Shown piece by piece: positions 10,431 through 64,000 of a stretch of 64,000 nt of DNA. Position numbers and translations under genes: made by a program. Under the pieces are notes generated by a model. That model was given only the letters and a program-made list of their open reading frames with translations. It was not told the origin of the DNA and ran no database searches. Source of the DNA: Ceratodon purpureus (taxonomy: Eukaryota; Streptophyta; Bryopsida; Pseudoditrichales; Ditrichaceae). Within the stretch, counting starts at the first letter, position 1, and each line of letters opens with the position of its first letter. The stretch covers positions 19,767,690 to 19,831,689 of the forward strand of contig CM026423.1 of assembly GCA_014871385.1 (NCBI GenBank). The letters run 5' to 3'.

Positions 10431-10556
10431 CTCTGCTTCGGAAGCTGAAGCTGGAGCTCACGTCGTCGAGGTGGAGGTTGCGCCATGCCATGTGAAGCGA
10501 TCTCTTCTCGTGTCGGATGCGTCATAGTTTAGTGTAGTGTTGGACTGCAGGGAGCG

Positions 10557-13500
10557 ATGTCTACGCAGGGGAAGCGGAAGCGGGAGCAGGACGTGGGGGC
10601 GATCAATGGAGGGCCTGTGAATGGGGGAGGTGCCATGGCCATGGACGTGTCGTCGGAGGCGATGCTGGCGCTGGACGCGGCGTCGGACGTCGTGGAGGTC
10701 ATTGACGTGCGGCGGTTGAAGAAGCTGGTGCTTGGATTCGAGCGCAAGCTGAGGGATAATCTGGAGGCGCGGATGAAGTTCGTGGACCAGCCGGAGAAGT
10801 TCATGGAGTCGGAGGTGGATCTGGACGAGGAGGTGAAGAAGTTGCATGCGCTCGCTGCGAATCCGGATTTGTATCCGGAGCTTGTGAGGCTCGGGTCCGT
10901 GCCGTCGGTTTTAGGGTTGCTGAGCCATGACAATACTGATATTGCCATGTCTGTGGTGACATTGCTGAGTGATTTGACGGATGAGGATGTGATCGGGGAG
11001 AGTGATGAGCCGGCGTTGGTGTTGGTTGATGCGCTCGTTGAGAACAATGCGTTGGAGCTGCTGGTGCAGAACCTGTCGCGCATGGATGAGGCGGACAGCG
11101 ACGAGGCTGCGGCCGTTTTTAATACGCTGTCGATTATTGAGAATATGACGGAAGTGAAGCCTGCGGTTGCTGAACTTGTGTGTGAGAGGACCAAGCTTTT
11201 GAGGTGGATTTTGAACAGAATAAAGTTGCGGGAGTTTGACAGTAACAAATTTTACGCGAGCGAGATTTTGGCTATTTTGTTGCAAAGCAGCGAGCCCAAT
11301 CAAAAGCGATTAGGGCAGCTGAATGGTGTGGATACCTTACTACAGGCTGTTGCGTTTTACAAATCCAGGGATCCGAAGACCACTGAAGAAGAGGAGATGC
11401 TAGAGAATTTGTTTAATAGTCTCTGTAGTGTGGTGATGCCCATGGAGAACAAGGACCGGTTCGTGAAGGCTGAAGGTGTCGAGCTTATGATTATTATCAT
11501 GAAGCAGAAGAGGCTTGCTTATGGTTCTGCCATGAAGGCCCTGGACTTTGCCATGACAAGGTGCCCAGCTGCCTGCGAACGATTTGTTGATGTTCTAGGG
11601 CTGAAAACGCTCTTCGCTGCTTTCATGGGAAAGGTACTTGATCAACCTTCTTTTCTGGAAGAATTTTTCTGTTCAGTTCGTCGTACGTCTGCCCATCTTG
11701 GGGTGGCTGCTCCTGTCAGATACTTCAGTTCAGTTGAGTTTTGTTTTGAGACTGCAGTAGACGTTTGTCTGTTCAAGAAAGCTTGCCAAGTTTTTTGGGC
11801 ATACTTGTTTAGATATGCTTAACACATTTGAGGCAAGAAGACGGGAAATGACGAGATCAATTTCCTTCTAACGAGGTTTCATTTTCTCACATGCCTAGAC
11901 TGTGCATTTGACAGATACCTGTGAAGGGAAAACACAAAGGGGAAAGAAACGTGGAGGAAATTGAGGAGCGTGTGATCTCAATAATTTCTTCTCTTTTTGG
12001 TGAGAATACTCTCAAGAGAGTGTGCGTTTTTTTTGCATACACTAGCCGCATGTCAGGTTACGGTTAGATCCATAAATTGCACATGTCTCACCTAGAATTT
12101 ATCAGATAGCATGTAGATTGTTGCTCAATATAGGCGTGATTTTGTCATTATTTAAATCTTCTGTACGGATACGTTCTTTCTACTTTTGGAGCCAGTGATG
12201 GCAATTATCCATGATGTCTTGATGCCGATGACGATCTATTGGTATTCGTAGAAACATTCGATCTTTCACTTTCACGTTAGGTTTTGGTACGGTCCCTCAA
12301 GTGTACCGCATGTTGCTTTTGCAGGTGGTTTGACACGGGGCTCGAGACGAGAACGCTTGTTGAGCAAGTTCACTGAGAACGAGTTTGAAAAAATTGATCG
12401 GTTGATGGAGCTTTATCTTAGGTGGGCTAATGAGTTTGTTGGTTATTTGGATATTTTCCCAGAAAAATTACATGTCTATTATGAAGCATTGGCTTTTCAC
12501 TATTCTCTTTGCGACCATGGCAATTTGTTTTGGTCGACTGTGGATAAATTATGAACTTTAATTAGTCATTCTTGATTTATTTTCCTTCAGTTATATACGA
12601 TTCTTTGTTTGTTAATTGGTTGCTGGATCTGTACATGATGGGGATGCAGGTATGCCGATCGTGTTAAAGCTGAGTCAAAAAGGCATGATGAAATGGATGC
12701 TGGTGATGATGAGGTGAGTGACTCAGCTGTAGCTTATCAGTTACAGAGTTCAGCAGCTATTAGTAATTTCTTTCATATTTTTGTTGGAGCATGTGCGTGT
12801 CAGCACCATGCCAGATCCATTTCTTGTTTCTCAGGAATACAGTTTTCCGCATTGAAACTGTTGAAACTTGGTGTTGTCCAGCCTCTCACAGGAACTAAGA
12901 TTTCAAACGATTTACAGTGTTTGCGAATGTCTGAGTTAGTCTTTTAATGTCAAGGCTAGTCCTTTTGACCTCAATATGTCCAATTTTATTTTTCTCATTA
13001 GAATGTTCTGCTCGTGCATTGGTAATTGGTGGACTGCAGCTGGATGAGGATGAGAAATATCTTGCTAAATTGGAGGCAGGTCTTTACACATTGCAGGTAA
13101 GCCATAGTTTCTACAATGAATTACTGGATTTATTTGTTTTTTGCTCTGACCAAGTTCTCGCTTTTGTTTGTGAGCAGTCTCAAATTTGTTCGTGATTTTT
13201 CTCGATACGTTTAATTCGTCGTTTTCCCCTAAAATCCAACCTTGACATTCTCAATTCTCTTGCATTTCTTTTAACTATCTGATGGTGTATGTGCAGTTGC
13301 TTGCTCTTACGATGGCACATCTATGGGCGTCAGAGTACGTATTCCACGACCTCAATCTGTAATTTGAGCTTGCATTATGCTTGACTTGTTCCGATATTTC
13401 TTTTATCAGCTTCTACATGCTCTGATCCTTTGCTTTCTTCAGGAACGCGGGCATGCGAGAAAGACTAGGACTATTGTTGAAACAACGTCGGCTTTCAAGG

Positions 13501-50738: not shown

Positions 50739-52544
50739 ATGGCCTCTTCATCTCGTGACCGAAGAGTATACGTAACCGAAGAAGAAATGGACAAAGCCAG
50801 GGCTGAGCACTCGAGAGCCGCGGCACACATGGCCTGCTTCGGCCCCGAGGAGGACACCGTGATGCTAGACACACCATCTCAGAACCTCAAGAGGCTTTCA
50901 GCCGACAAAGCCAAGGAGCAGAGTCTAGCAAACTCCAGCCAAGGCAAGAGATCAAGGGAAGCTCCAGAGACTGCACCAACAAATGTGCCGCACCAAGCCT
51001 CCCCCATGAGAGTTGTCGTACCAGATCAGGTAAGTCCCTTGAAACTGTGGCTTGGTTTTGAAGCAATGGAAGAAATTGCACAAGACATGGGCCAGGAAGC
51101 TCTGTTCAGTGGGGAGACAACAGCTGATCGCATCCTCCGTGGGATACCACCGGCTGAAGCTGAAGAGCTAGAGAAAGCTGATGTAGCATTTCCCCGTGTG
51201 CCACAGCTCCTCTACCCAAGTAAGAGACCTGATGGTCTCCAAGGTCAGCACCTAAACCTTACCCAAATACCAAGTGATATTCAAATTGACCCTTTTACAT
51301 GCCTCTCATTAGACTTTCATGTAGCTATACATTTTCAAATTCCTCTTGCTCCTCTTTTCCATAACCAAGTTAAACAGCTAGTTAGAAAAAGATTGGAGCA
51401 TATGAGTATCCCACTTGGTTCTCACATTATTGAACCAATTTCCATCTTGTGCATGAGTGTTAAAAGAGGTGGAGAAAAAGGAGTTTGGGCTGGAATTGCC
51501 AAACTCCATCTTCTCCACCCCGAAACTGATGGGGTGGCATTGTTGAAGGGTCTTAGGCCATTCATCTTGCAAATTGACCCGGAATCACCCCATGGCACCC
51601 TTGGAAAGGTATGTAAGTCTTACCATTCGATTGCAAGAAATACTAACCTCTCTATCAAGATTACTAGTGAGAATCTTGTTGATGTCCCTTCCCACTCTCT
51701 TTTCAAAGATATCTTAGAAAGTAGTTTTAGGAGAGGCCACAAATTCGAAATTGTGGAGGTGCAAAAGGGTACCTCCAACAACCATGCTTACATTGTAGCC
51801 CCTACACCTTCACAAGCCAAGAAATTCAAAGAGCTTCAAGTGTCAACAAATCAAGAAATCTTGGAGGCTCATGTGAAGAAGGGGCCCTCCCTCTCATTTG
51901 AGCAAAAACTAAGGAAAGATGCTCTTACCTTAACTTTCTACAATCTTCCCATTTTGATGAGCATTGATGACACAACTCTTGCCATTCACAATGAGTTAGG
52001 CACCAAAAATGTTGTTTCAATATGGTTTCACAAGCACAATGGTATTAGGCACAATGGAAGTGCTAATATAGAATGCCTAAACCCCTTTGTTTACCGTAAG
52101 TTTGTGGGAAAAGAGATGAAAATTGGTGTGTACCATGTGGAAATTACCGCACACCGTCGAAGTCTAGAAGGTAGTGAAAAACCTTCAAAGGAACTTTTGG
52201 TCAAGCTTGGATTTGAAGACACTAATACTTGTTTGGTTAATACTGTGGAAGCAATTCAAAACCAAACCCAAGGTGAAGTAAAAGGTGATGTTCTTACCTT
52301 GATGAAGGAAGCCATTGAAGATGGCAACAAGAAGCTCAAGATGGAGTTGCACAAGGACATGAAGACTTTGAAGGATGATATTGTCAAGGAGGCTTACGAC
52401 TACGCGGATGAAATCAATGAGAAATTGAAAAAACAAATGCTTGACATCCAAAGTACTTTGGCTTTGGCACTCAATGGAATGCAACAAATTACCGGCTTGG
52501 TAAGTCCCAACCTTTTACTCAAGGACAAGCCAAATGGGGAGTGA
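50739..52544 (+). CDS. Retrotransposon ORF1 protein (RRM-like plus C-terminal coiled coil)
   Basis: ORF1 proteins of non-LTR elements bind the element RNA. I prefer the ATG at 50739 (CAGCAAAGATGGCC, strong context), giving 601 residues. The frame stays open far upstream, to 48432. The N-terminal third is charged and low-complexity, with a basic KRSREA patch. An RRM-like segment lies at about residues 390-475 (LTLTFYNLPILMSIDDTTLA to MKIGVYHVEITAHRRS). Residues about 515-570 are heptad-like (KKLKMELHKDMKTLKDDIVK, DEINEKLKKQM), predicting a coiled coil for oligomerisation. The stop TGA at 52542-52544 overlaps the first codon of the next frame. A PDQ|GTAAGT donor-like site at about 51030 is read through. 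The RRM assignment is from pattern only. Confidence 0.65.
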   Translation: MASSSRDRRVYVTEEEMDKARAEHSRAAAHMACFGPEEDTVMLDTPSQNLKRLSADKAKEQSLANSSQGKRSREAPETAPTNVPHQASPMRVVVPDQVSPLKLWLGFEAMEEIAQDMGQEALFSGETTADRILRGIPPAEAEELEKADVAFPRVPQLLYPSKRPDGLQGQHLNLTQIPSDIQIDPFTCLSLDFHVAIHFQIPLAPLFHNQVKQLVRKRLEHMSIPLGSHIIEPISILCMSVKRGGEKGVWAGIAKLHLLHPETDGVALLKGLRPFILQIDPESPHGTLGKVCKSYHSIARNTNLSIKITSENLVDVPSHSLFKDILESSFRRGHKFEIVEVQKGTSNNHAYIVAPTPSQAKKFKELQVSTNQEILEAHVKKGPSLSFEQKLRKDALTLTFYNLPILMSIDDTTLAIHNELGTKNVVSIWFHKHNGIRHNGSANIECLNPFVYRKFVGKEMKIGVYHVEITAHRRSLEGSEKPSKELLVKLGFEDTNTCLVNTVEAIQNQTQGEVKGDVLTLMKEAIEDGNKKLKMELHKDMKTLKDDIVKEAYDYADEINEKLKKQMLDIQSTLALALNGMQQITGLVSPNLLLKDKPNGE

Positions 52545-52771
52545 CCACCAACCGCCAAGGTAAAAAGTATTTACTGCAATACTACTCCGTATACGTAGCT
52601 GTATTTCGAAATAGTATTATACATTTAGAATATACTAGGAAAAATACAAAATATTATAGTATTTTCCAATGTTTTGAATACTTCTTGAAATACAAATACA
52701 ATTACTATACTCCATACTTGTACAAATACAATATACAACCAAAATACTACCTCTCTCTGAAAACCTACTTT

Positions 52772-53160
52772 CATCCAAAACTTGGATTTCATCCAAAATT
52801 CCAATCTCATCCAAATCTCAAACTTCATCCAAAATTCAGATTTCATCCAAACTCCACACTACATCCTAAATTCAGATTTCATCCAAACCTCAGATATCAT
52901 CCAAAATTCAAATTTCAACCAAATCTCAGATTTCATCCAAAATTTAGATTTCATCCAAATCTCAGATTTCATCCAAAACTCAGAGTTCATCCAAATCTCA
53001 GATTTCATCCAAAACTCAGAGTTCATCCAAATCTCAGATTTCATCCAAAATTCAGATTTCATCCAAATTTCAGACTTCACCCAAAATTCAGATTTTATTC
53101 AAAATCTAAGGCCCAGTCAAAATTCAAATCTCATCCAAAATTCAAACTTCATTCAAAAAT
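52772..53160 (+). repeat. Hexapeptide-encoding repeat block 1 (18-bp unit)
   Basis: About 20 units of CAT-CCA-AAN-YTC-AGA-TTT encode HP(K/N)(F/L)(R/K)F. HPK and HPN units alternate, giving a 36-bp super-period. The +1 frame is also open here (DFIQNS repeats, 52782-53162). The result is a His, Pro, Lys/Arg and aromatic-rich basic segment, N-terminal of the 2A site. Confidence 0.85.
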
Positions 53161-53428
53161 AAAATTTAAACCAAAAATTACACCTAGATTCCATACACAA
53201 CACGTATACAACCTTAGTACAAAAAATCATCACCAACTACCACATTATATCAAACCCAACCATAAAATGGCCTCGGCCTACCGACCTCGCCTAAATACAA
53301 AATACAAATATCAATTCATAAACAAATTAATACCCAATACCATAACAAATCATACTCTAATAAATACAAATACATACACATATTCTTCAAACATACAAGT
53401 AGAAAATACAATATCCGCCATCCATTCA

Positions 53429-53669
53429 AAACCAAAAATTCATCCAAAATTTAAAATTCATCCAAAATTAAAAATTCATCTAAAATTAAAAACTCATCCA
53501 AAATTAAAAACTCATCCAAAATTAAAAATTCATCCAAAATTAAAAACTCATCCAAAATTAAAAACTCTGCCAAAATTCCAAATTTATCCAAAATTCCAAA
53601 TCCACCCAAAATCCCAAATTCATCCAAAATCCAAAAAACACCAAAACTTCAGATTTCATCCAAATCTTA
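53429..53669 (+). repeat. Hexapeptide-encoding repeat block 2 (18-bp unit)
   Basis: About 13 units encode HPKLK(T/I) and related versions (HPKFKI, YPKFQI, HPKSQI), ending in HQNFRFHPNL, which resembles block 1. It is separated from block 1 by about 270 bp of non-repetitive frame that includes the first ATG. Lys-rich and more homogenised than block 1. Confidence 0.85.
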
Positions 53670-54103
53670 TAAGACATAGTAGTCATCCAAACTATAAAAT
53701 CCACCAAAAAGCCAAATTCTATTTAAAAAATATAACTCACTCCAAACAAAGAATTATCTCACAATATCAATTTCACATAATAGTTGATATTATACAAAAA
53801 CATAATCTTATTAACAAACACTCTACTACCATGGTCTACCAACCCCACATGAAAATAGACAAAACCTATCAACATCATGAGAGAATAAAATACGAAAAGA
53901 ATACAAAACAACACATATACAACTGGTTTACTAACTCAATTACAAACCATTCCTCTGAACCCTCTACAACCTCGCATTATCTACCTTTAAGTCCAGAACA
54001 AACAATACCCGCATTACCTAATCTATTCAACACAACAAAATTCATAACAACAAAATATTATAAACTAAATTATAAAAACTCTAAAACTAGTATTTACCAA
54101 GGA

Positions 54104-54166
54104 TACTACTTTGTAAACAAATTAGCCCTACTTCAATGCGGGGACATTGAATCAAACCCAGGACCA
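54104..54166 (+). other. 2A-type ribosome-skipping peptide
   Basis: The frame reads YYFVNKLALLQC then GDIESNPGP, matching the 2A consensus D(V/I)ExNPGP with a preceding Leu-rich helix. In characterised 2A peptides the ribosome omits the bond between the last Gly and Pro, here codons 54161-54163 and 54164-54166. This would release a 541-residue N-terminal product (if translation enters at 52541) from the APE-RT-RNase H-RLE product starting with Pro. 2A motifs are known in several animal and trypanosome non-LTR elements. Confidence 0.85.
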
Positions 54167-56884
54167 ATGCCCAACATACTTAGAACTCATCCAGTCGAAC
54201 ATAAGAAAAGAGCTAGAAGATACTTTATCCCTAGCACAATTAAATTCCGCCCAAAATACCAACATATTGCAAAATCATTTGCTCCAATTTTAATAACTAA
54301 CCACCATCTACACCAGCAAGCAATCATTGAATTTCCATATCTACATCAATACATACAAATACAATCTCCACTACCTCACATACTATATGCATTAATCGTT
54401 ACCATACACCCATCAATAAATACATGTAATGATATATTAACTCATCCCCGCATTCACCACTTCAATGATATTTGGACTAATACAGTAATGATTAGACTAG
54501 CCAACCTAAATAACCCTCCGGAAAGACACATCCTCACTCAACATCCTTATACGAAATTCATTGAAATGAACCAAGACCTAATATCCCCAAAAAACTCAAT
54601 TCATGATGAACTATACAAATTTATCCATAACCAAGATACACCACCAACACCTACCATACTCCAAAGAAAATTTCCTTTCTTACCAAATAAATTAATCACT
54701 GAAGCCCTACGCTGTTTCGAAAGTCTAAATGAATACTCACATCCACCACCCCTTCCAAACATCCCAACCCCTCCCCCGAGAATAAACATCAACACTAATG
54801 ACGAAACAAATATAATAACTTGGAATGCATCTTCGCTTAATACAGCTTTACCAAACCTACAAAACCTCGTATATAATTCTTCAAGGACTACGGCAATTAT
54901 AAACATCCAAGAAACAAAACTCACAGCAACTAAATCCACAAAATGGATACAAAATCTATTTCCTGAGTATAAACTCATTTTTAATAACACACATGCCCTC
55001 ACAAGATGTATACAACAAAGAATGCCCTACACCCCCGGAAGAGGAGGCTTACTTACACTTATACACAATAAATATGCTTTCCCTGGAAATATTACCAAAA
55101 TCCCTACACCAGCAAACATTTCCCCATATCTACAAATAATAAAAATAAACAACCATCCGTTATTACCATGGCTAATCATACATTTATACATGCCGACACA
55201 TCTAGAAGACATCCGCCTCATCCCCCACATTCAAACTACAATCACAAACCAAATAAATGCACACCCTAATCATACATACATCTTGTGTGGAGACTTCAAT
55301 CGTGATATAACACTAAACGGAAGACAAAATCACAACACCAATACCCCACCACAAGAAGAAGATATTCAATGGAAAAACTTTACAAACACACTAATCTAGA
55401 ATACATCCCAACAAACACAACATTCACGAGACAAGGTGGTTACAACTACACATCAACTAGTCTCATAGATGGTTTCTACATAAAATCCCTAGATAATACT
55501 AGACTTACCTCCACGACAAACACAAATCTGAATCTAAACTCTGATCATTATCCAGTCACCTTACACATTCCACAAAACCTATTGATAGCCAGACCACCGG
55601 CCCCCACCAATACCCCAACAATTAGAATCTTAAATCCAATACCTCCAGAAAACTTAGAAAAATTTAATATTGAATTTTTTGAAAAAAATTCTATACAAAT
55701 AAATGAATTAACCAGACTTCTAGAAAATAATGACCATCTTACCCCTGATTTATGGCAAGAAGCTTGCGCATCCTTAGACAAAATCGTAGAAAAAATCTCA
55801 GAAACCATTGAAAAAACATGTAACGCACCCCCACTACCACAACTAACAAATAGATCAAGACAACAAGGCGGCTTTTTACCTCGAAAACTAGCCAAAGAAT
55901 GGAAAAAACACCTTGCCACATACCATCTTATCAGAAAAACTATATATATTGCAAAAAACAACCCCCAATGGCAAACACACCCCATATTGAACGAAATACG
56001 TAGCCACCAATATGTACAAATACCACATCCACCAGCAACAGACTCTATACCAAACGAATGGATCGATGACATAGCTAATATCGCTAAAACTGCTAACAAA
56101 GAAGCCAGGAAAATAACCACAAAATACACTAAAGATTGCATTCACAAAGCTGTATCAAAATATCGACAACTATATGAAAAAAGCCCCAAAAAAGTAAATC
56201 GAAAAGTCTTCAAAAACTCTGAAACGTCACCTCTTGACTCTATAATGGATAGACAAAACCACATCTTAACTAGTCCGGAAGATATTGCTCAAGAAATTTA
56301 CATCCAACAATCCATTAGTAACCGGCCAACAGTCCCTACATGTCACTATCAAACTACACATCCTCCACAATGCACATGTAGCGTCAGACAATATCCATGG
56401 CATGACTTGGACGGATTCACAATTGATCAACGCGGAGAACCACAAATCCCCCTACACACATATTTTGATCAAGAAACTTACGATTTATGCATCAAAAACC
56501 TAGGAAATAACAAAGCCCCAGGCCCTGACAAAATACCTAACTCTATTCTGAAAAATATGCCCCCACGATTCCACAAACTACTATTTCTAATTTTTAAACA
56601 CTGCTACAAACAAAAACAAATACCTGCAACATGGAAAACTAGTCTAACTGTCTTATTATATAAAAAAGGTGAACCTTCCCAACTTACAAACCATAGACCT
56701 ATCGCTTTAGCAAACACCATATACAAACTCTTTACTAGCACATTAACCTTTATCCTTTCCACATACGGTGAAAAACATCAAATTCTGCATGACAGCCAAG
56801 AAGGATTCCGAGCAGAAAGAGGAACATCGGGACAACTTCAACTACTTATTGCAGCCTTAGAAGATGCAAGACTTACAAATCAAG

Positions 56885-56902
56885 ATATATATATATATAT
56901 AT
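56885..56902 (+). repeat. (AT)9 microsatellite at the RT motif-A frameshift
   Basis: The upstream frame reads NQDIYI into the run and the catalytic motif-A frame resumes directly after it (ILYIDFKNAF). The phase difference equals one dinucleotide, so gain of a single AT unit by slippage explains the frameshift. Confidence 0.75.
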
Positions 56903-59900
56903 CCTCTACATTGACTTCAAAAATGCTTTTGGCTCCATTGACCATGCGAGACTCTTAGCCATAATGAAAGATCTCGGATACCCAACCGATGCTATAAACT
57001 TGGTAGGAAATATATACTCACAATCCTCTACTATATTTTCCGGAGAACATTTTGGTAAAACTCTACTTATTCCCATCCAAAGAGGAACAATACAAGGGGA
57101 TACTCTTAGTCCATATCTATTTATAATATTCTTAGAACCACTTCTTCGATGGTTACAACAAGGTGACAATGGATATACCTTTGGTACATCCAAAGTTACA
57201 ATCTCATCCGCAACATATGCTGATGATTTAGCAGCTATTGCTAACAAATTAGCATCACTACAAATACAACTAAATAAATTAGACAAATTCTGCGAATGGG
57301 CTGGAATGGATCTTGGTATACCTAAATGTGCAGTGACCGGATGCCCAAATAAATCAAAAATGAACCCCATAGCATTCAAAGCACAGATCCAAGCCACCAA
57401 TATAAACTACAGAAACCAACCAATATCAGTTTTGGACCAACATGATCCTTATACATACTTTGGAATAAACCTAGCACCATCACTTAAATGGAAAACACAA
57501 ATGAACACCACCACGGCTAAAGTCATCAAACAATGCCAAGCCTTAGTGGCTTGCCCAGCCACTATGAAACAAAAAATCAACATGGCCGATACAGTCATAC
57601 GTGCCGGGATCGTATACAGCTTCTATGCAGTACCATACTCTATGCCAGCCATTAGAAAAATTGACAAAAAGATCATAGCACTCCACAAAACAATATGTGG
57701 ACTACCAAAAAGTACATCTAATATTGCTACACAACTCCCACACGATCTATTCGGAATGGAAGCCTTTTCGTTAAAAAATGCCTATCTACGATGTATTGGA
57801 GAACAATTACAAAATGCTCTCAATGACAAAGGCAGACTAGGTAAAATCTACTTTGGCTTAATACAATTCATACTTGCAAAATTTGGAGGCTCCGAAGAAA
57901 TAGACCGCATCAAATATCAAGATTGTGTGAGATCACCTCTCACTAGAACATTGTTTTTACTCAAACATGAAGCCGGAGTCCACCTTAAAAGCACTATAGA
58001 AAATTTTCTATTAAATCCATCCCCACTCGAAACCGCATGGATGCAAGAAGCACAACACCTACATGGCCTAAACCCCAAAACTTCTCTCAAACTAGTACAA
58101 AAACTACTATTACATAATATAATAAACTTAGAACAAATAACCATGCCTAACGGGACCACCCTAATGAACCCAGACGAATATAAAATATACCACTCCAATC
58201 CCACAAAACTCATAAAAAGTGCGCTAAATATTGCCAATCAATTATTCTGTAAACCCACTTGCCATCAAAGATGCCAAATACCATGTCGATTCCGATTCCA
58301 CTCCCCCCCAAGAACTCTAAAAAATGATTACATATTATTAAACCACAACATTCTACCACAACAATTGAACCCCCCAATACACCCCCCCAACCCTCCTATT
58401 CCCGAACGTCCTCCTCCTCCCAACAATATGCTTAAATATCCAAGACAATTTCCCATACACACAATACTAAGCCACAAACAAAATAAAACCAAAGACCCAA
58501 ATGGGATAAACTACAAAGATACAACATATTTATGCCAATGGACCACGCCAAATAATAACACATACAACAAATGGCGTAATCAAAGCGAACTTTTCCCGTG
58601 GAGCGACATTAACACTTGTCTCCACAATACTGAATTACTTACTCAATACTACACTAAACAACAACATAAACATTTCTTAGACACCATCGAAAAGCACTTC
58701 TCCATAGAACAACAAAAAGATACAAGATACGTTACTCCGGCCACAATTATCCCACTAGCACATGTCTCCATTAATGAATGCAACCCAGAAAATGACATCG
58801 AAACAGACTCAAACATTATCCAAACACAACATGACGTCGCACACATATACGAAGATAATGGCCGGCACCTCATCACCATCCCGAAAACTAGACTACTATG
58901 GCTATGGAAACAATATCAACATGCAAAAAATACCCCACACGGCCTTGAGCCATCCACCCAATCATTTGAAACTGAAATTGTCTGGCTATATCAAAGATAT
59001 AAATATCGTATTCCAAAAAATGATCCACTTACATGTGCTCAATATACAATACCAACTGAAATACTAGATTTTCTAATATCAACATTCAACATCCACCAAT
59101 CTTACTTTTCATCACCAGTTACATGCCCTACACAATTTACCCAATTCTACTCACCATTTTCACGAGATATAATATTTGGCTCCCTAGGGAAAGCATTTGA
59201 TCACAAATGGAAAGGAATTGGCTACGCTCACCCCCACAATGAAACCGACTTACAACAAGCCATTCATTAGGCCCGCCTTGCGGCAAAAAATGACCCAAAC
59301 AGTATCACCATACTCATCTCTCCCGATACTAACTGGTACCAAAACCCCAACCCCTACACTGGTCCATTCCCAGACACACATATTATTGCCCATTTTTATG
59401 CAGACACCATTACATATGAAGAGCCAACAATTCCCCCCGAACTTAAACTCGAAAGAAAAGAACTTTCTACGCTCCGAATATTCTGTATCCATCACCAAAA
59501 CAACAGTATCGGTACGCACGAGCAAATAAATCAACTTATTCAGACAATTAACAATCTCCAAATATTACAAACCCACATTCAAATTGCATCTCCCACCCCC
59601 TTAAACACTCATGTCAATCCCAGTAAAAAATGGTCCAAATCATATTATCCAAACACCCCCGCAAATAACTCAACACCTATCCCACAACTACCAAATTACC
59701 AAACAAATCTACCACTAAAATTCCACCCCCAATTCAGTTATTACACAGATGGATCATTCAAACCCCCAAAAGAAATGGGCAACGGTAAATGGAGAAGAGA
59801 AAAAGCCGGATACGGTATTTACAGCCCCAAAGGCCTCAATATCCCCAAAAGACTCCATGGACACCAAAATATACTCCGTGCCGAAATGATGGCAGTACAC

Positions 59901-60773
59901 AAAACACTCAGAATTATTAACACACAATTCCCTAATGAACCAGCATACATATTTACCGACTGTCTAAATGTACTATGCTTACTTAATACACAAATAAAAC
60001 ACCCCACACTACATAATAGTCACCCCGATCAAACCACACTTGCCTCCATAGTAGAACTACTCCAACAAAGAACACAACCAATTTCACTATACAAAGTTAG
60101 AGCACACATCAACATTGATGGTAACGAAGAGGCAGATTATTTAGCAAAACAAGGTCTAAAACTAGCACACAGAAAAGCCCTACACTCATACGAACATGCC
60201 CATGCCACTCCGTTCTACTTCCAAAAAGATAACTGGCCTTCAAGAAACGATGTTCCAGACAAAGGACCAGTTAGAACTCTAGAAAAACAAATCAAAAAAT
60301 ATGACAGAGAAAACAATCTAGAAAACATGGCCATACAAACCCCCAACATTTGCAAATGGACGGAAAATGTAGACATAGACAATGTACTTTCTAACGAATT
60401 TTGGGAAAATCCAGCCATCACTGACAAGCAAAAATCATGCCTCATAAAATTCCGTACGGGAACTTACATGGGCCAAGCTAGAAAACAAATGTTTTTCGGA
60501 AGAGAAAGATTTCCATCCATCACATGTCCCACTTGCAATTCACGCGAACCGGATACATGGCTACATGTATTACTCACATGCCAACAACAACATATACACT
60601 CCCTCCGAGTCAAAAGACACAACAAAGCAGTATGGGAAATTAGAAAACTACTAGTCCCATCCGAAAAATCTCGTTGTTTTATTCTAATGAATGCGGGCAC
60701 CTTCAATGATAAACCCCCAGAAAATACCGTTCCCAACTGGTTACTTCCATGCACATGTGGCACTCAAAGATGA

Positions 60774-61199
60774 AATTGTAACTCTAGATTTAGACCAGAC
60801 ATTCTTTGCGTTAAAGGTTTGCCGTACCAAAGCGACCCCCCTACAGAAATAAACCCCAATCTTACCATACAATTCATTGAATTCACATACTGCAATGACA
60901 GATTCTCACCAGAAACATTTGTAGCTAAAACCAACAAATACAACCCACTAATTGCCAGTCTTACCGCTAGAGAATGGAAAGTCGACCCCCTCATCGTCAT
61001 CACAGCAGGCGCTAGAGCTACCACACACATTCCTTCAATGAAACTACTTGCAGACAATTTCAAAATACCATGGCTTACCATCAAAAACACCTTTAAAAAC
61101 ATAAACACTATTGCCATACAATATGCCATGTCTATACTTCTCCACAAAAGAAGAATAGAAAACCACCAACCATTACCCGAAACATTAGACCCCCCATAG
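60774..61199 (+). other. C-terminal restriction-like endonuclease (RLE)-like domain
   Basis: In the same frame as RNase H and the CCHC finger but after a TGA stop, the sequence reads RFRPDILCV (60789-60815). About 27 residues after the Asp comes IQFIEFTYCNDRF with a Glu at 60879-60881, then VAKTNKYNPLIASL and PLIVITAGARATTH. The order CCHC, RPD, E, K..KY is the arrangement of the RLE of R2-type elements (PD-(D/E)XK fold). The stop makes this copy defective for the domain unless read through. Confidence 0.6.
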
Positions 61200-61224
61200 T
61201 CAAAGAAAACCCCTAAATATAATC

Positions 61225-61470
61225 AAAAAAATTTTAGTAGCTAGAGCTACTTTATTTGAATTGATAGCATACGGGTGTCAAGTCTCTTGTCAACTTCTCA
61301 CAGAGGGGGCTGTTGGTTGGCACAACTCATCTACTGCCTGCAATTGCTCACTGAGCAGTACCAAGCCACTTCATCCCCCACATCCACTCAAACGAGTCCA
61401 TCAGGGTTCGAACCCGGACCAGATAAATGAGACAAACGCTCACCTCCAACCAACAAATGAGCTCGTGGCT
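61225..61470 (-). mobile_element. tRNA-derived SINE-like element, tail-to-tail with the retrotransposon
   Basis: On the minus strand an A-box-like GAGCTCATTTGTTGG (plus 61451-61465) is followed 50 nt later by a perfect B box GGTTCGAACCC (plus about 61404-61414), in a tRNA-like context (GGTCCGGGTTCGAACCCTGATGG). A tRNA-unrelated body of about 180 bp follows. It ends near TCAAATAAAGTAGCTCTAGCTACTAAAA, which contains a 7-bp stem (AGTAGCT/AGCTACT). Its 3' end therefore abuts the 3' end of the plus-strand LINE. It could alternatively be a tRNA-like part of the LINE 3' region. Confidence 0.5.
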
Positions 61471-61520
61471 TAGTGTCCAAAATCGCAATCACATGAATCT
61501 TAAGAAGATAATCACTACTA

Positions 61521-61560
61521 TTACTTGTTACTTGTTACTAGTTACTGGTTACTGGTTACT
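61521..61560 (+). repeat. Heptanucleotide tandem repeat
   Basis: Almost six units of TTACTDG (TTACTTG twice, TTACTAG, then TTACTGG twice and TTACT). Confidence 0.8.
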
Positions 61561-61643
61561 TTGTGACTAAAGTGTCTACTCTCGAAAGGGGGGAGTAGAT
61601 CTTTACTTCCATACCTTTGTCCTGTGGGCATTGGCTTGGGGGT

Positions 61644-61696
61644 GGATCGAACAGACACTTAATTCACTTCGGTCTCCTCCGGAGACCGTAGTTTCT
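61644..61696 (+). repeat. Direct repeat with perfect hairpin, copy 1
   Basis: GGATCGAACAGACACTTAATTCAC leads into CGGTCTCC-TCC-GGAGACCG (61670-61688), a perfect 8-bp stem with a 3-nt loop, then GTAGTTTCT. It recurs at 62054-62107. Confidence 0.7.
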
Positions 61697-62053
61697 TTAT
61701 TAATTTAAGAAGGATCAAAGTTTGCAAAAAGAAATATAAAAGATGCCAAAAAAATATTTATCTTCTATACAAAACTTTAGAATTTGGTTCTTTTGAAAAA
61801 AATAATATTATTTTGAAGTTAATTATGCTTATTCAAGTAATTGTGTTCAAGAAAAAAAGTTTTAGATTCATTTTTTGTTTTGTATTAAAAATACTAGTGT
61901 TGAATTGTGTTTTGAACCCCCACTATGAAAATATAAATCCGCATAGCCGGGTTGATCATAAATCACATGCTGACTTGGAATTTGAGATACTAATTCCGGG
62001 ATTTTAGGGAGATGCAACGTCCTATATTAACTTGCGTAGAGTCTTTGGTTTTA

Positions 62054-62107
62054 GGATCAAACAAAGACTTAATTCACGTCGGTCTCCTCCGAAGACCAAA
62101 GTTTCTC
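62054..62107 (+). repeat. Direct repeat with hairpin, copy 2
   Basis: GGATCAAACAAAGACTTAATTCACG leads into GTCGGTCTCCTCCGAAGACC and AAAGTTTCTC. The stem has decayed by two substitutions relative to copy 1. The 410-bp interval between copies is AT-rich, without coding potential. Confidence 0.7.
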
Positions 62108-62322
62108 TCTCTCTTTGGTTTTAGCCCCTTTGGCAATCTCCTCATTCACAAAAGGTTGCGATGTGCCATTGCTACTGGACTTCAAATCCTTTACCTTACG
62201 CTTGATGTCTTTTTATTCCAAGAGGTGTAATTCAAGATGGCAACTTTTGATTACAAGTCACCTGCTATTATCAGCTCTTGGTTGTGTTTCCACACCCTTT
62301 TATACCTGTAGTGGGAGTTTAA

Positions 62323-64000
62323 GTAGAACATTGTCAAGGAATCCGGGCCAGGGTGCCCTCAGACATGAAGGAGCGACTCAAGGCCCCCATCTCGGTCGGC
62401 GAGCTGCAGAAGGCGGTAATGGATATGAAACCCGGGAAGGCGCCTGGCCCAGACGGCATTGTCCTAGAGTTCTACAAGGTTTATTGGGGCATGCTCGGCC
62501 AAGACTTCCACACCATGGTGACGGTAAGTATTCAGAAAGGAAAGCTGCCACAAGGAGTCACGCATGGGACGATTGCACTCCTCCATAAGGGCGGTCCGAG
62601 GCAAGCCCTCACCAATTGGCGACCCATCACCCTCCTCAACATGGGGTATAAAATTTTCGCCAAAGCCCTTCAACTGCGTCTCCAACCCGTGCTCATGGAG
62701 ATTATTAGTCCGGAGCAATCTGCTTTCCTACCAATGAGATTTATTTTAGATAATCTCGTGCTCACACAAGAAACCATCTCTAGGGCTGAACAATCTGATC
62801 AAGCACTGCTTTTCCTTAAATTAGACTTCTCGAAAGCCTATGACATGGTTGAATGGGGCTGCTTGTTCATAGTTATGGACAGACTGGGATTCCCGTGCGA
62901 GTTCATCAAGATGGTAAAGCTGCTGTTTGTCGACGCATCGGCTGATGTAAAGGTGAATGGCGTTCCTTCCCCTCAGTTTAAAATTGGTCGCGGCGTGAGG
63001 CAGGGGTGCCCCTTGGCCCCCTACCTCTTCATAATTATTTCAAAGGTTCTTAATCTGATGGTTATGCGAGAAGCAGAGCGTGATAATGTACGCGGAATTT
63101 AGCTCCCATTTCCGGGCCGTCAGCAAATCTTGGCACAATATGCCGATGATACTTCTTTCACTCTCCTCGGTGAGGAGGACAAGGTGAGAAACCTGATTGG
63201 TACTCTCAATCTGTTCTGCCTAGCGACAGGGTTGGTGCTGAATTGGACTAAGTCTAAGGGTTACTGGAAATGTAACAATCAAGTGAACCGGCCTGCCTCG
63301 ACCAATACGCTAGGGGTCTCGTGGGGGGATGCGGCCGGGGTGAGAAAGCTGCTGGGGGTGCCTTTCGGGCTCTCATTGACCACAACAAATGTCAACGAGT
63401 TCCTCCAAGCCAAACTTGCGACCAAGCTGACGCATTGGAGCTCAACGAAAATTAATCGAACAGGGTGCGGCATCATTGCCAACAGCATTCTTTTCTCGTC
63501 TCTCTTCTTCTTTTTCTCGGTGTGGGGCGGCACCAAGAAGGGCGTTGCCAAGCTAAAGTCGTCTATCTTGAATTACCTCGCAGCTGGGAAGGTGGAGAAA
63601 TCTCGTGCGAGAGTCAGTTGGATACAGTGCTGCCAGAGCAAGCAGAGCGGAGGTATCAACCTTATTAATCCGGATGATGCTGTAGCTGCTCTAATGGTCA
63701 AGTGGGTAATTAAGGCTTTGGAACCAAGCACCTCGAATCTTCATCTCCTGCTCCGCCTTAAGCTGGCTCAGGCGCAGCCATATAGCGGTGGGCGATGGTC
63801 AGAGAGCTTGGATTACTGCTTTGTCCTACGACATCAATCCAAGCGGGGCTCTATCGTATGAAACCGTGTAGCGCCAGCCTGGAAGAGTCTGCTGCATGCA
63901 CTGACCTTTGTCCCCCCGATCTCATGGGACGAACTGATGAATCTGAGTTGGTGGTGGAACCCGGTTGTACAGCCTATCGGGCCAGGCTTCTCAAAAACCG
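62323..64000 (+). pseudogene. 5'-truncated L1-like LINE reverse transcriptase, runs off the right edge
   Basis: Plant L1-type RT in one frame: KAPGPDGIVLEFYKVYWG, GTIALLHKGGPRQALTNWRP, ITLLNMGYKIFAKAL, EQSAFLPMRFILDN, LKLDFSKAYDMVEW, GRGVRQGCPLAPYLF and QYADD (63136-63150), then LNWTKSKGYW and the thumb/connection GVRKLLGVPFG. In-frame stops occur at 63100-63102 (TAG) and 63859-63861 (TGA); the frame is open on both sides and to the window end. The frame begins abruptly after a TAA at 62320, with no endonuclease upstream, so it is 5'-truncated as usual for L1. It is unrelated in sequence and base composition to the large element at 47.6-61.2 kb. Confidence 0.92.

Follow-up and report, generated by a model that had tools for sequence, protein, structure and literature searches.

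Our analysis of a 64,000-nucleotide stretch of Ceratodon purpureus DNA (hereafter the window) indicates that this moss carries a defunct non-LTR retrotransposon of the Dualen type, whose unbroken relatives encode one polyprotein with an APE endonuclease before the reverse transcriptase (RT) and an R2-type RLE after RNase H. We put the probability of this reading at roughly 0.85. The dual-endonuclease type is known, whereas the moss host, which brings Dualen-type LINEs into land plants, and a clade-wide PCIF1-like domain are what we would add. Domain identities, conserved residues and tree placement were computed, and the features are as follows.

52769 to 53176, forward strand: 18-bp tandem repeat array ahead of the likely start codon (22.7 copies at period 18 in Tandem Repeats Finder)
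53267 to 61199, forward strand: LINE reading frame, a single ORF, broken (window ORF list and frame comparison; start by comparison with relative P0047)
53423 to 53664, forward strand: a further array of 18-bp tandem repeats, lying in the coding frame and encoding His-Pro-Lys repeats (Tandem Repeats Finder)
54128 to 54166, forward strand: 2A-like motif LLQCGDIESNPGP (from the sequence; P0047 carries GDIEPNPGP at the same place)
54815 to 55575, forward strand: APE endonuclease (Pfam Exo_endo_phos, E 7e-6 with the first piece alone; iterated family profile, 3.3e-64, the window read-through being among the sequences that shaped this profile)
56464 to 57780, forward strand: RT, YADD intact, with a frameshift near 56,900 and approximate ends (RVT_1, E 1.1e-18 for the piece after the frameshift; trees)
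58914 to 59441, forward strand: PCIF1-like methyltransferase-fold domain, with HPHN at the NPPF position, crossed by TAG 59268–59270 (coordinates of the profile match)
59736 to 60158, forward strand: RNase H (Pfam RNase_H, E 2.8e-13; motifs with D, E, D and D located)
60525 to 60581, forward strand: CCHC zinc knuckle (C16, C19, H29 and C34 invariant in 22 aligned tails)
60588 to 61166, forward strand: R2-type RLE of the PD-(D/E)xK kind, crossed by TGA 60771–60773 (profile, fold and residues; ends from model helices)

Frameshifts near 55,390 and 56,900 interrupt the ORF, as do two in-frame stops, TAG 59268–59270 and TGA 60771–60773. Its start codon was assigned to ATG 53267 on the grounds that P0047 begins MASAYRPR and the window starts alike. 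An earlier note on this DNA had placed the element at 54810–61199; the APE, RT, RNase H, CCHC and RLE motifs that it named were all found, inside that interval, but the frame opens upstream of it, at the ATG located with P0047. Pfam gave Exo_endo_phos, RVT_1 and RNase H in that order along the window. No second copy of the element was detected in the window, the sole other tblastn match below E 1 being an L1-like RT at 62416. The ends of the element are not fixed, because no direct repeat of at least 12 bp links the searched flanks (51800–53400 and 61195–62400). tRNA and Rfam scans were empty.

With the read-through from RT to the end as query, 79 proteins were recovered after 7,995 candidates had been scored; a Pleodorina starrii protein as query gave 18, of which 10 were new. 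Relatives named here come from Pleodorina (P0054), Haematococcus (P0034, P0049 and P0055) and Parachlorella (P0038 and P0059). Alignment A1 holds 22 of 34 sequences and alignment A2 22 of 36.

The APE motifs TWN, IQETKL, LYMP, CGDFNRD, LIDG and SDHYPV were found across the frameshift near 55,390, and all eight residues checked (N, E, Y, D, N, D, D and H, which we take to be catalytic) are present in the window. The iterated APE profile matched 54 of 90 sequences. Further downstream, the D, E, D and D of RNase H presumably serve catalysis as well. For the C-terminal tail, R2 was the top match in a profile search against the PDB, in Foldseek and in structural alignment. The PD-(D/E)xK residues are also conserved, with RPD at 60792, E at 60879 and the helix lysine at 60927. 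As expected of an R2-type RLE, the window tail thus has the PD and E residues, a lysine on the following helix and a CCHC knuckle in front, and its predicted model shows the PD-(D/E)xK fold. The earlier identification of 60774–61199 as an RLE is borne out as to identity, and RPD, IE and KTNKY all lie downstream of TGA 60771–60773; the domain itself starts earlier than claimed, a helix and a strand preceding the TGA in the model. At the sequence level, the tail profile matched R2 over the zinc knuckle and from the lysine helix onward, the PD and E strands being matched by the model only. Viral cap-snatching nucleases also ranked after R2 in the structural alignment, which we read as a shared PD-(D/E)xK fold only.

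According to the accessible part of PMC10499050, the RLE of R2 adopts a PD-(D/E)xK fold in which a helix, not the usual strand, bears the characteristic lysine. Among the 33 rows with letters in both columns, the lysine occupies the helix in 26 (K..QH; KTNKY in the window) and the strand in seven (ExK), never both and never neither; one of the 26 helix rows, P0028, was aligned differently in two alignments. The change maps to two events on a quick tree with 34 labelled rows, and a careful tree places all strand-lysine rows in one 12-row clade (support 95/93). Judged from the alignments, this pattern speaks for a working RLE nuclease, though it rests on one or two independent events. The strand-lysine subgroup provides a natural experiment for studying the active site of the RLE.

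Could a single nuclease suffice? We consider it rather unlikely that the element is dual in composition and yet uses only one enzyme in TPRT, with APE nicking and the RLE acting as a DNA-melting or DNA-binding module, or the reverse. APE-only and RLE-only LINEs do each manage with one nuclease, as described in the available portions of PMC4640811 and PMC3636483. However, 10 sequences including the window combine an RLE tail with gap-free letters in the eight APE columns, and all 10 keep N, E, Y, D, N, D, D and H together with the RLE catalytic residues (P0028 with the alignment caveat above; P0080 ends before the lysine helix). The remaining RLE-bearing proteins have gaps in the APE columns or no APE match, and we take them for probable truncated protein models. 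Moreover, the RLE lysine sits in exactly one of two places in every readable row, which a pure binding module would not need and which speaks against such a role. We favor the reading that both nucleases work, and relatives that keep both in one unbroken protein make it testable which enzyme cuts which strand.

Between RT and RNase H lies a domain that the earlier note did not mention. It matched Pfam PF12237 (E 9.7e-12) and, in a profile search against the PDB, PCIF1 (E 1.3e-8), and its predicted structure was likewise matched to PCIF1. The PDB match needed the family profile, as the window alone matched PCIF1 there weakly (E 0.015). At E 0.01, the Pfam PCIF1 model picked up no more than 12 of 21 relatives. 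PCIF1 (CAPAM) is a cap-specific m6Am methyltransferase, and the likeness lies in the methyltransferase fold, which the model aligns to human residues 445–627 only. It differs in its eroded NPPF motif, in its place within a LINE polyprotein and in the WW domain: with matches up to E 1 considered, no N-terminal WW domain showed in the six pieces of the window, nor was one among the 10 families listed for 21 relatives at E 0.01. The Pfam name PCIF1_WW itself denotes a CAPAM-like methyltransferase, not a WW domain, in the part of PMC7641849 at hand.

NPPF is given as the motif of PCIF1 in the accessible text of PMC8868631. At this position, none of the 39 rows with letters reads NPPF; one reads SPPF (P0018), six NPEY (P0008 among them) and four HPPF (P0012 among them), the window has HPHN, and the pattern (N/D/S)PP(F/Y/W) fits a single row. 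The surroundings are near-invariant in 42 rows, with the proline of SPL kept in 41 and, in the D..FG block, D in 40, F in 38 and G in 41. We read this as a fold that has been kept while its methyltransferase chemistry was apparently lost or altered. Cap binding is not assumed, because the modelled match covers PCIF1 445–627 only and two of the arginines that contact the cap in zebrafish PCIF1, 239 and 269 in the available part of PMC7948815, fall outside it. The kept fold, the conserved SPL, D and FG positions and the SPPF and NPEY rows would also suit an active N6-adenosine methyltransferase marking the element's own RNA or cap; we regard this as improbable in view of the missing NPPF, the HPHN of the window, the partial structural match and the position of the arginines.

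Among the matches listed in the openly licensed literature, we found no report of a PCIF1-like domain in a LINE. The accessible part of PMC8868631 describes PCIF1 as found only in eukaryotes and leaves retroelements unmentioned, and those of PMC7641849 and PMC8324889 are silent on such a domain in a LINE. Tentatively, and with somewhat less than even confidence, we suggest that the whole Dualen clade captured a PCIF1-type methyltransferase core once, after diverging from dual-endonuclease elements of the P0063 kind, and has since retained it to serve some step of retrotransposition. Such a core might bind SAM or RNA, with altered methylation or none, for example holding the 5' part of the element mRNA beside the RT. 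If true, these LINEs would encode a module that stems from an RNA-modification enzyme, for which no precedent has been described. The presence of the domain throughout the clade offers a new lead, an mRNA-cap enzyme fold apparently captured by a retrotransposon. As to the linker between RT and this domain, a PHD finger occurs there in P0030, P0049 and P0089. A chromodomain, considered by eye from W-rich repeats in the linker, was unsupported when seven fragments were compared with Pfam; the one match to pass the cut-off was the PHD finger of the P0089 fragment.

We infer the following course for the division of labour between the nucleases, the function of the 2A-like motif and the role of the PCIF1-like domain. 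Ribosomes would skip at the 2A-like motif, so that the enzyme comes free of an N-terminal leader. Once one of the nickases has opened the first target strand, the exposed 3' end would prime reverse transcription of the element RNA. RNase H would then remove the template, and the other nickase would open the second strand. By analogy with R2, in which the RLE likewise adjoins a zinc knuckle, our view is that the first nick may come from the RLE and the second from the APE, with the opposite division less likely. The PCIF1-like domain, with its retained fold and eroded catalytic motif, would most likely act as a nucleic-acid-binding or scaffold module, not as a methylase.

The class assignment draws on the joint presence in the window of an APE upstream of RT, an RLE downstream of RT and an RNase H. 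That the element is instead an ordinary APE-only LINE, its tail a degenerate linker only resembling RLE motifs, is very improbable: the last 141 residues of the window alone do lack matches in the PDB (up to E 10) and Pfam (up to E 1), so that the family profile is needed, but this profile and the fold alike identify an R2 RLE. Of 38 rows with letters at the PD position, 37 have PD and one has FD; of 37 at the E position, 36 have E and one has D. When the window and its near relative P0002 were kept out of the family profile, the window tail still scored 101.5 bits, and none of 1000 shuffles exceeded 4.9 bits.

Further supporting the assignment, a careful tree (IQ-TREE) placed the window RT in a 59-row clade (support 99/95) with Pleodorina, Haematococcus, Parachlorella and the Josephin-bearing P0032, P0049 and P0054. 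Seven of 95 RT rows were too short and were dropped. Of the 88 that remained, this tree comprises 75, another 13 having been left out as near duplicates or for their very long branches; a quick tree of all 88 recovered the same clade with 69 rows (SH-aLRT 97). The row nearest to the window is P0003 (90% over 428 columns). Human L1, the window's L1-like element and others form a separate branch (91/67), with R2 and P0064 outside. In support of the earlier note's reading as a relative of Dualen, the RT groups with Dualen-type green-algal relatives and not with the L1 group, in trees that contain no named Chlamydomonas Dualen, I or Jockey RT, and its host, being a moss, is indeed a streptophyte. 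With this choice of rows, the placement accords with the available part of PMC4640811, where Dualen is seen as connecting the RLE elements with the APE ones. The sister of the window clade is P0063 (95/94), on a very long end branch. This 2351-residue protein, representing 67 member sequences, shares the APE, the RT and, by eye, an RLE-like tail with PD, E and K..KY; it differs in the lack of a PCIF1-like domain and of a Pfam RNase H. P0063 also has a zinc finger and perhaps represents a second dual-endonuclease type.

The best PDB match of the RT is R2, as it is for the RLE, and the whole-protein profile matched R2 at 2.8e-65 and L1 at 1.1e-40. The likeness to R2 extends to the C-terminal CCHC knuckle and the PD-(D/E)xK nuclease with its helix lysine; R2 differs in having an RLE only and, to our knowledge, no APE, RNase H or PCIF1-like domain. 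The domain order of R2 in the accessible part of PMC10499050 agrees with this.

Like the Dualen/RandI LINEs, the element joins APE and RLE, has an RNase H and shows an RT with green-algal relatives, some of which have a Josephin-type cysteine protease. It differs in its moss host, in the absence of a detected protease, in a 2A-like motif near the N-terminus and in the PCIF1-like domain between RT and RNase H, which was not found in the literature searched. Dualen/RandI of green algae was reportedly described by Kojima and Fujiwara in 2005, and the original Dualen abstract is said to name a cysteine protease. We know these LINEs here through the available parts of PMC4640811, PMC3636483, PMC8226300 and PMC3747384, and LINE/Dualen repeat annotation also appears for cryptophytes in that of PMC12747079. 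Among the matches listed in the openly licensed literature, there was no mention of Dualen or RandI in mosses.

The 2A consensus is D(V/I)ExNPGP, and GDIESNPGP in the window fits it. Among 89 relatives scanned, only P0047 (GDIEPNPGP at about residue 82), P0049 and P0072 have a 2A-like motif. Josephin was found in P0032, P0049 and P0054 and in two of 21 relatives scanned, and in none of the window pieces at E up to 1; the cysteine protease is variable within the clade, because only some relatives carry Josephin. The earlier suggestion that 2A stands in place of the Dualen cysteine protease did not hold up: no protease was found in the window, but the two are not alternatives, because Haematococcus P0049 carries both GDVEANPGP and Josephin.

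The two 18-bp arrays have similar units, one before the start codon and one in frame; the latter falls between ATG 53267 and the 2A-like motif, and no His-Pro-Lys-type stretch was found in the N-terminus of P0047. From 52700 to 61250, G is scarce on the element's coding strand, in contrast with the flanks: the GC skew, taken in 2-kb steps, falls as low as −0.48, and there are 150-base stretches with just one to five G.

The element is flanked upstream, at about 50900–52544, by an ORF1-like protein of a LINE, recognized by eye, and downstream, at 62323–63861, by an L1-like RT that an in-frame stop interrupts near 63,100; these may be parts of one L1. Insertion of the element into one L1 was unsupported, the longest exact direct repeats between the flanks being 11 bp. 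TTACTTG/TTACTGG repeats at 61521–61561, 320 bases past the stop codon, may form the element's 3' tail. Two occurrences of a sequence of roughly 40 bases around CGGTCTCCTCCGGAGACC were seen by eye, at 61650–61700 and 62063–62110, about 410 bases apart. Elsewhere in the window, an exon of CTNNBL1 (Beta-catenin-like protein 1) at 10533–11819 marks the host as Ceratodon purpureus or a species very close to it: a C. purpureus protein matched with 100% identity and 84% query coverage, whereas Physcomitrium patens reached 87%.
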